DNA of 64,000 bases from Salvelinus alpinus (taxonomy: Eukaryota > Chordata > Actinopteri > Salmoniformes > Salmonidae): positions 20,304,038 to 20,368,037 of the forward strand of contig NC_092098.1 of NCBI RefSeq assembly GCF_045679555.1, in the 5' to 3' direction. Shown one piece after another: positions 57,117 through 60,100 of the stretch; the first letter of the stretch is position 1, and the number at the start of each line of letters is the position of its first letter. The notes beneath the pieces were generated by a model. The model was not told where the DNA came from, searched no databases, and was given only the letters and a program-made list of their open reading frames with translations. Both the position numbers and the translations under genes were made by a program.

Positions 57117-60100
57117 TTACGGTAACAGCAGTGAACTCCCTGTCCTGTCAAACTTCTTGCCCTTTGAGAGGGCGGCCACTTGTTTCAGCAGCTCCCGGTT
57201 TTTGGCCTGTAGTAAAAGAAAATAAGTGAGTATGTGACCATCTATGTTTAATGAAAGCCTTTACCACAAGCTAGGAGCGTTTGATTATAGTGCCTTCAGA
57301 AAGTATTCACACCCCTTGACTTTCTCCACATTTTTGTTGTGTTACAGCCCGGATAAAATAATAAAAAAAGGGATTAAATTTAGTCTTTAGTCAAAAAGTA
57401 TTCAACCCTTTTGCTATGGCAAAAATGTGCTTAACAAGTCACATGGGCTCACTGTGTGCAATATGTGTTTCACATTTTTATTAAAATGACTACTAATCTC
57501 TGTACACCACCAGAGCATGTGAGGGGAGTTGAGCAGTTGGAAATCCCACTCATTGGAGTGGTGCACCACTCCGGTGCTCCATGTCTTTCCCTACCGCTCC
57601 GCTAAAAACCACTCCGCGCTCACAGAAAAACAAACTGCCGCTCCAAATTCACTCCATTCAAATCACAATTTAACCAACACCCATCTATTTTTGTGACTAC
57701 CTAGATCTACCAATTGGTTTGTAAGTATTGAAACCAAACCATATGGATTTTAAAGAAAAGTATTTGAATAAATATGAAAAGGTGAATGAAAAGAAGCTAA
57801 CATTTCAAATAGACTAAATGTCATATTAAACAGCATATAAACACTAAATAGGCCAGTAGCCAGACAGGGAGCCTAAGGAACTAAAATGAATTTTTTAAAG
57901 CCATATTATTTCAAGGCTATAGCCTATAAAGAAATACATTGTGAAGCATTTGCGAGTGCGACATAATAGGCTAGTAGGGACAAACATTTTGTTGTATTAA
58001 ATAATTAATCTATAAATTGTGCATATAGGCTGTGACTTACTTAGAATGAAATACAAATCTTATTAGAAACAAGTTACGCCAGTCTGTGGCTTCAGGCTCA
58101 TGTGATGACTGGAGAGCCGGCCAGCAGCTGAGTATCCTCTCCACACTTTCAGAGCCACTGGGGATGCTAAACACCCTTTTGGCCACTCTTGCCAGGCTGG
58201 ACAGAGATGCAGTTTTTCTCTCTCAATTGAACGTGGAATATGCCACGTTAAATTATGGCCTATTGCATAGATAATAGAACGAAAAGTTTAAGAGATCTGA
58301 TTTTTAGGTAATAAATACTTTGCTACAATGACAGTGATCTATCAACCTCGTTCGTTTCTTTTAGCATGTGTACGTAGTTAGTACACCATCATGTTTTCGG
58401 GATACGTGTCTTTTCAGATTCCACATGGATTCTTTAGTTGTGGACACTACATCACCACACTCCCTCTGTTGGTCCTCATCTTTGTAAGTCACCTTGACTT
58501 TACACCAGTGTGTTTTATCAGTTTCTTTATGAAAATATTTAGTGAACTCCATGACAGTAGCTAAAGCAAGCGGCTATAGAAGCACAGAAGAAGACTATAA
58601 ATGCATGTTAGGCCAGCCATGTCCTGAGTTCGTGAAGTGAGCGCTACTGGAGCGGGCGAGAAGGCCGACCCCCTAGCCTTTGCTCCACTCCGTGCTCCGC
58701 TTACATACTCTGTACCCTACACATACAATAATCTGTAAGATCCCTCAGTCGAGCAGTGAATTTCAACCACAAAGACCAGTGAGGTTTTCCAATGTCTCAA
58801 ATAAGGGTAGATGGGTAAAAATAAAAAAGCTGACATTTGAATATCCCTTTAAGCATGGTGAAGTTATTAATTACACTTTAGATGGTGTATCAATACACTA
58901 AGGCACTATAAAGATATAGGCATCCTTCCTAACTCAGTTGTCGGAGAGGAATTAAACCGTTCAGGGATATCACCATGACAGTTACCGAGTTTAAATGGCT
59001 GTGATGGGAGGAAACTGAGGATGGACCAACATTGTGGTTATTACTCCACAATAGTAACCTAATTGACAGCATAAAAAGGTGGACGCCCGTGAAGAATTTT
59101 TTTCTCTTTCAAAACATGCATCCTGTTTACAACAAGTCACTAAAGTAATATTGCAAAAAATGTGGCAAAGCAATTCAGTTTTTGTCCTGAATACAAAGTA
59201 ATATTTGGGGCAAATCCATTTTTATTTATTTACATTTTTTATTGAACCTTTACTTAACTAGGCACGTCAGTTAACAACAAATTCTTATTTACAATGACAG
59301 CCTACTCCGGCAAAACCTGGACGAGGCTGGGCCCAATCATGCGCCACCCTATGGGACTCCCAATCACAGCCGGATGTGATACAGCCTGGATTCGAACCAG
59401 GGACTGTAGGGACGCCTCTTGTACTGAGATGCAGTGCCTTAGACCATTGCACCACTCGGGATAGCGCCATAGTATTATTGGAGACCTGGAGAACTTAATT
59501 TCTGTAAAAAATTGTGGCACATTTAGAATGAAAAGTTAAGATTGTAAATGTGGTGGGTGCTCCTGGGTGGGTGGTAGGATGGGAGGTAGGGGCTACAATC
59601 AAATGTGATAAACTTTTCCAATCTTTCCTCTCTGTCTCTGTCTAGCCTATGGGAAAGTGTTTCTTGTCAGAAAGAACAGTGGTCATGATGAAGCTGTATG
59701 CCATGAAGGTGAGTCTATCGTCTTTGACATTGTCTTAATACAACACATTACAGAGTACCACTCTCCATATTTTTAAGCATAGTGGTGGCTGGATCATGTT
59801 ATAGGTATGCTTGTAATCGTTAAGGACTGGGGAGTTTCAGGAAAACATTTTTACAGAATGGAGGTAAGCACAGGCAAAATCCTAGAGGAAAACCTGGTTT
59901 AGTCTGCTTTCCACCAGACACTGGCAGATGAATTCACCTTTCAGAAGGACAAAAACCTAAAACACAACGCCAAATTCTACACTGGAGTTGCTTACCCAGA
60001 AGACTGAGTGGCCGAGTAATAGTTTTGACTTAAATCTGCGGCAAGAACTGAAAATGGTTGTCTAGCAATAATCAACAACCAATTTAACAGAGCTTGTAGA

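Follow-up and report, generated by a model that had tools for sequence, protein, structure and literature searches.

The window, by which we mean the whole 64-kb stretch of DNA analysed (C13:20304038-20368037), carries an insert that is probably a retrocopy, primed on the tail of a SINE, of an RNA that ran antisense through an rps6ka4-like gene; that is, a product of SINE 5' transduction. The insert splits a Tc1-like relic and joins the SINE to a kinase exon. A donor locus in the same genome (2.37 Gb) holds the same element together with its upstream DNA, with order and orientation kept, and the copy stops at the 3' tail of the element, to within about 5 nt, without the 3' flank of the donor. 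This is the pattern that is predicted for RNA-mediated 5' transduction. The coordinates of the features are collected in Table 1.

Table 1. Features of the insert, its recipient and the related elements (window positions unless stated otherwise).
Feature	Position	Strand	Basis or remark
Tc1-like relic A	27291-28178		aligned with relic B
Tc1-like relic B, whole	58708-60243		recipient, split by the insert
Relic B, left half (recipient)	58708..59218	+	74.9% to relic A 27291-27825
Relic B, right half	59737..60243	+	to relic A: 94.6% (59737-59810), 76.9% (59965-60243)
SINE, full-length, with tRNA-like head and LINE-type tail	59219..59461	-	head border possibly up to 59468
A-rich SINE tail, (AAATA)n, abutting the relic junction	59219..59243	-	sequence, family tails, comparison with donor tail
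End of rps6ka4-like intron, splice acceptor AG	59462..59645	+	similarity to donor and C24
Kinase exon copy	59646..59708	+	63 nt of the 68-nt exon; 5 nt lost, out of frame
Start of next intron, GTGAGT, up to the 5' edge (SINE orientation)	59709..59736	+	final 1-4 nt not collinear with donor
Transposon in donor SINE tail	~1008-1504 of reverse-complemented L003 (C13 near 12053620)		nested in the SINE in the rps6ka4-like intron
LINE copy, candidate partner family	7073..8650	+	reverse transcriptase in two frames; 3' tail matches SINE tail
Second LINE copy, same tail type	38122..40400	+	tail; endonuclease and RVT_1 matches under Pfam cut-offs

Alignment of the recipient, relic B, with relic A, which is uninterrupted Tc1 sequence at the point of insertion, showed that relic B is interrupted by 518 bp (59219-59736, one A being ambiguous at the border). 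The two relics were collinear to 59218 (CAAATCCA) and collinear again from 59737 (AATACAAC), with 0 bases lost at the target site and a duplication of 0-1 nt. The interruption described in the original prediction stands, but the borders given there (59212-59738, 527 bp) take in 7 bases of the relic on one side and 2 on the other. As also described there, the SINE tail lies at one edge of the insert and the kinase exon is antisense to the SINE, both of which are seen in the sequence. A further 154 bp of relic B (59811-59964) had no counterpart in relic A and are presumably ordinary Tc1 sequence that relic A has lost. Within the region 28200-29860 of the window, a pair of inverted transposon-like frames (28427-29032 on the plus strand and 29024-29584 on the minus strand) had matching translations.

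The kinase part of the insert retains the splice acceptor and donor that had been predicted for an MSK-like exon, but the exon itself is damaged, having lost 5 nt relative to the donor. The peptide read across the frameshift had its best PDB match in RPS6KA5/MSK1 (E = 2e-5), and the broken exon alone gave 0 matches in Pfam. A tblastn search of the window for further MSK exons, with MSK1 as the query, returned the known exon at E = 0.004 and all other matches at E of at least 0.35. Judged by its reading frame, the exon copy is now dead as coding sequence, and no coding function is claimed for it. Introns have not been removed as in a processed pseudogene, since intron is present on both sides of the exon; their retention would be consistent with an antisense RNA, and equally with DNA. 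Searches of viral_contigs with SINE and kinase patterns gave 0 matches, and a 22-base match in a bacterial MAG (L001) is probably due to chance.

A genome search with the insert identified the donor on the minus strand at C13:12053114-12053623 (85% over query positions 12-521; E = 4.8e-168), at a distance of 8.3 Mb from the window on the same chromosome. Among the best 40 of 4678 candidates, this was the near end-to-end match besides the insert itself, the other 38 matching in the SINE part only. Chance is excluded as an explanation of the match between insert and donor. When the genome was searched with the kinase part, all three of the three candidates were scored, and these were the insert, the donor and a locus on C24, a DNA search of this kind being one that may miss places. 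Positions 59469-59732, exon included, matched the donor at 84% (C13:12053114-12053376) and C24 at 78% (C24:29263288-29263539). As had been anticipated, the donor carries the SINE at the same offset from the kinase stretch and in the same orientation as the insert, within an intron of an MSK-type gene and antisense to that gene. The donor exon is intact at 68 nt, and the same 23 residues are encoded in C24. The donor SINE tail is interrupted at a TA by a Tc1-like transposon, about 500 bp long, that is missing from the insert; a related copy of this transposon was found at 20500-20894 of the window.

The gene had been predicted to be either rps6ka5 or rps6ka4, and comparison of its exons favoured the latter. 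The comparison with MSK2 and MSK1 covers later exons, the MSK2 sequence used not spanning the copied exon. Six of the seven later exon stretches of the donor were nearer human MSK2 than MSK1 (for example, 82.8 versus 64.7%), with the order reversed in the seventh (61.8% to MSK2 versus 64.2% to MSK1), and five of six stretches in C24 were likewise nearer MSK2. Because most later exon stretches favour MSK2 over MSK1, the donor gene appears best named rps6ka4. No SINE was present in the matching intron of the C24 gene copy, which is presumably the ohnologue of the C13 copy.

As predicted, homology between insert and donor ended at both edges of the insert. On one side, the insert tracked the donor over the whole SINE tail, whose low-complexity sequence limits precision to about 5 nt, and the donor intron beyond the tail was missing. 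On the other side, homology stopped 24-27 bp past the exon. Beside this 5' edge the insert has a single TTGACATTG, which occurs twice in the donor, with starts 30 bp apart (2002-2040 of the reverse complement of L003), and C24 has two copies of TGACATTG as the counterpart of the donor repeats. The terminal TCTT of the insert may consist of extra bases or reflect a jump between the two donor repeats. The alignment program extended the similarity to 59747, which as we read it is chance. A segmental insertion had been named as the alternative. As to a wider segmental duplication, with homology running past the edges, comparison of the 19.3 kb around the donor with the window revealed, beyond the insert, dispersed repeats alone. 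If a segment of 518 bp were placed uniformly at random so as to overlap the SINE, its edge would fall within 5 nt of the tail end with a chance of 1.5%, and within 8 nt with a chance of 2.2%.

A genome search with the SINE of the insert gave 4643 first-look candidates, of which the best 40 were scored, and the start of the SINE head was placed from 28 family loci. The tRNA-like stretch at 59377-59453 scored 19.3 bits, under the gathering score of 29, and the head was about 70% similar to other-family SINE copies at 3271-3418, 14902-15040 and 37077-37207. The SINE tail resembled the ends of two LINE copies, one near 8650 (match to 8580-8650, E = 3.8e-13) and one near 40386, as well as a short copy at 34341-34385. 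The first frame of the candidate partner LINE matched RVT_1 (E = 4.3e-23), and the second frame had no Pfam family. We take this partner LINE to be L2-like. The RSg-1 machinery that had been proposed is not supported, the SINE tail being common to a different LINE. In folding comparisons with shuffled sequences, the two LINE tails had z scores of -4.23 and -3.15, whereas the insert tail (z -0.66) and the copy at 34310 (z -0.10) folded no better than the shuffles.

The junction between SINE and intron matches letter for letter in insert and donor (TATGGCGCTA followed directly by TCCCGA), so that one SINE landing lies behind both. Intron substitutions, with gaps ignored, numbered 20/191 between insert and donor, 34/199 between donor and C24, and 41/182 between insert and C24. 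Within the SINE, insert and donor differed at 27 of 214 positions, and they differed from the consensus at 16 of 215 and 17 of 214 positions, respectively. Three derived SINE bases were common to insert and donor; other members shared 0-4 with the insert. The sample for this comparison comprised 27 members, which are the best matches to the insert and not a random sample; it was drawn from the 30 loci represented by the best 40 of the 4643 candidates, with the insert, the donor and L029 (identical to L028) set aside; L005, the same place as L017, was not counted in addition. Because there was one landing and no excess of derived bases in common, the copying seems, on these counts, to have occurred within about the first 18% of the donor SINE's life, soon after it landed. 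Early copying is what a mobile young SINE predicts; copying of DNA would be possible so soon, but would have no reason to be. L028 and L029 (C32:29249937 and C32:29232969) lie 17 kb from each other in opposite orientation and show no difference over 3223 bp; they represent either a recent inverted duplication or an assembly artefact.

In the mechanism that we propose, a putative antisense transcript would begin at the next intron or further upstream, pass through the exon and the SINE, and end at the SINE tail, in which AATAAA motifs occur. The partner LINE, which we take to be L2-like, would then supply the reverse transcriptase that primed on the SINE tail and went on copying until it left the template some 25 bp past the exon, after which the 5' end would be joined directly with the addition of 1-4 extra bases. 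Tail-primed copying of RNA is favoured because an edge at the tail is expected by chance in only 1.5-2.2% of cases and because of the early date, despite the missing duplication. Several observations count against it. The insert tail folds no better than shuffled sequence, unlike the two LINE tails; 5' transduction usually comes with a target-site duplication, here of 0-1 nt; the primer end shares no microhomology with the tail; and a DNA transposon lies in the donor SINE tail, so that a break there is possible.

The whole copy lacks a target-site duplication (0-1 nt), a feature that is usual, not universal, in 5' transduction. Among the 27 members of the SINE family, 11 had a repeat of at least 5 nt, compared with 13.7% under a cross-locus null, a difference with a binomial P of 0.0005, and the other 16 had nothing above 4 nt. 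The excess of repeats in the family is fitting for the L2 clade, whose target-site duplications peak at 3-5 bp according to the accessible part of PMC4245944. For ZfL2-2, the portion of PMC2666801 available to us gives a duplication in 20 of 25 inserts in DT40 cells, with truncation in the rest, and, for zebrafish copies, microhomology at about 80% of 3' junctions and extra bases at about 40% of 5' junctions. The primer end CCA had 0 microhomology with the insert tail. The missing duplication does speak against target-primed insertion, but weakly, because 16 of the 27 family members show nothing above 4 nt.

With a duplication of at most 1 nt and 1-4 extra bases, the junctions have the properties of a class 2 templated sequence insertion. 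As set out in the available sections of PMC5110952, templated sequence insertion polymorphisms resemble the insert in that a distant stretch is copied and in their class 2 junctions, and for class 1 insertions A residues must have been added and 5 bp or more duplicated; the insert differs in that its edge coincides with a SINE tail. Patch repair, in which a DNA fragment from the rps6ka4 locus filled a double-strand break within the Tc1 relic, is in our view unlikely. Such patch repair would explain the class 2 marks, namely no duplication, no deletion and 1-4 extra bases (PMC5110952, in the part seen), and is in keeping with the location of donor and insert on the same chromosome. The edge at the tail would then be a coincidence, a fragile AT-rich site or perhaps the consequence of a break from the Tc1-like transposon, which does sit in the donor SINE tail. 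However, that transposon is missing from the insert, the coincidence amounts to 1.5-2.2% under random placement, and the copying took place early in the life of the SINE. Further, the sole DNA duplication among the 28 family loci (L028/L029) spans both sides of the SINE.

The tail edge and the missing duplication would be accounted for jointly if a SINE-tailed antisense RNA had been reverse transcribed and the cDNA used as a patch at an existing break, in an endonuclease-independent retrotransposition without target-primed nicking. cDNA patches are described for class 2 insertions in the accessible text of PMC5110952. This course presupposes two things, a break and an RNA that ends in the SINE, and a direct mark of cDNA was not seen; we regard it as quite improbable. 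Scarcely conceivable is a sequence of two events, in which the relic first received a kinase fragment and a SINE then inserted precisely at the edge of that fragment: the lack of an excess of derived bases common to the SINE parts of insert and donor agrees with it, but an independent SINE landing at the insert is contradicted by the junction shared with the donor. A template switch of SINE cDNA onto rps6ka4 pre-mRNA during insertion has just as negligible a probability, for although extra bases at 5' junctions are common in ZfL2-2 (about 40% in zebrafish; PMC2666801, in part), the kinase reads in sense on the cDNA strand, which implies an antisense template, the wrong strand, and in the donor the SINE and the exon lie side by side already.

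Transduction of 5' sequence by SVA was reportedly described by Damert in 2009. SINE-tail-primed 5' transduction, our preferred reading of the insert, resembles SVA and L1 5' transduction in that unique upstream DNA is moved with a non-LTR element whose 3' tail lies at the insertion edge. It differs in that the element is a short, tRNA-headed SINE, in that the copy runs antisense through an exon, and in the missing target-site duplication. In the accessible part of PMC4862182, L1 5' transduction events are called extremely rare in human genomes, and Alu-mediated transductions are given as not reported as of 2016. A literature search, conducted mostly outside subscription journals and in sources partly accessible, returned PMC4862182 as the sole paper for phrases on SINE or Alu transduction and found no report of SINE 5' transduction. 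Transduction is already documented for L1 and SVA, and the SINE case is apparently without precedent in the literature found, which is not proof. Whether LINE-tailed SINEs can mobilise upstream unique DNA, including exons and splice sites, by way of long antisense transcripts ending at the tail seems to us evenly balanced. If they can, this would be a working route of exon shuffling, of which the insert is a dated example, a single genome containing donor and copy as well as the second gene copy that has no SINE. Such a case, with the second gene copy empty, would bring exon movement by SINEs within reach of a test, and with 4643 candidates in one genome a systematic scan could tell mechanism from accident.

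The SINE of the insert had been assigned to HpaI. Rfam detected no UnaL2-type 3' element at the insert and three elsewhere in the 64-kb window; HpaI identity is ruled out by the absence of a UnaL2/RSg-1-type 3' element. Like the insert SINE, the HpaI/SmaI-type salmonid SINEs are tRNA-derived and have a 3' tail in common with a LINE, but theirs is UnaL2-like, and the insert SINE has another head and another tail. We take a different SINE of the window, at 55880-56023 and with a UnaL2-like tail, to be of the HpaI/SmaI type. A UnaL2-type 3' element also lies directly behind the LINE copy at 49747-52845, which has one stop-to-stop frame of 985 aa with endonuclease and reverse transcriptase domains and is perhaps a young copy.
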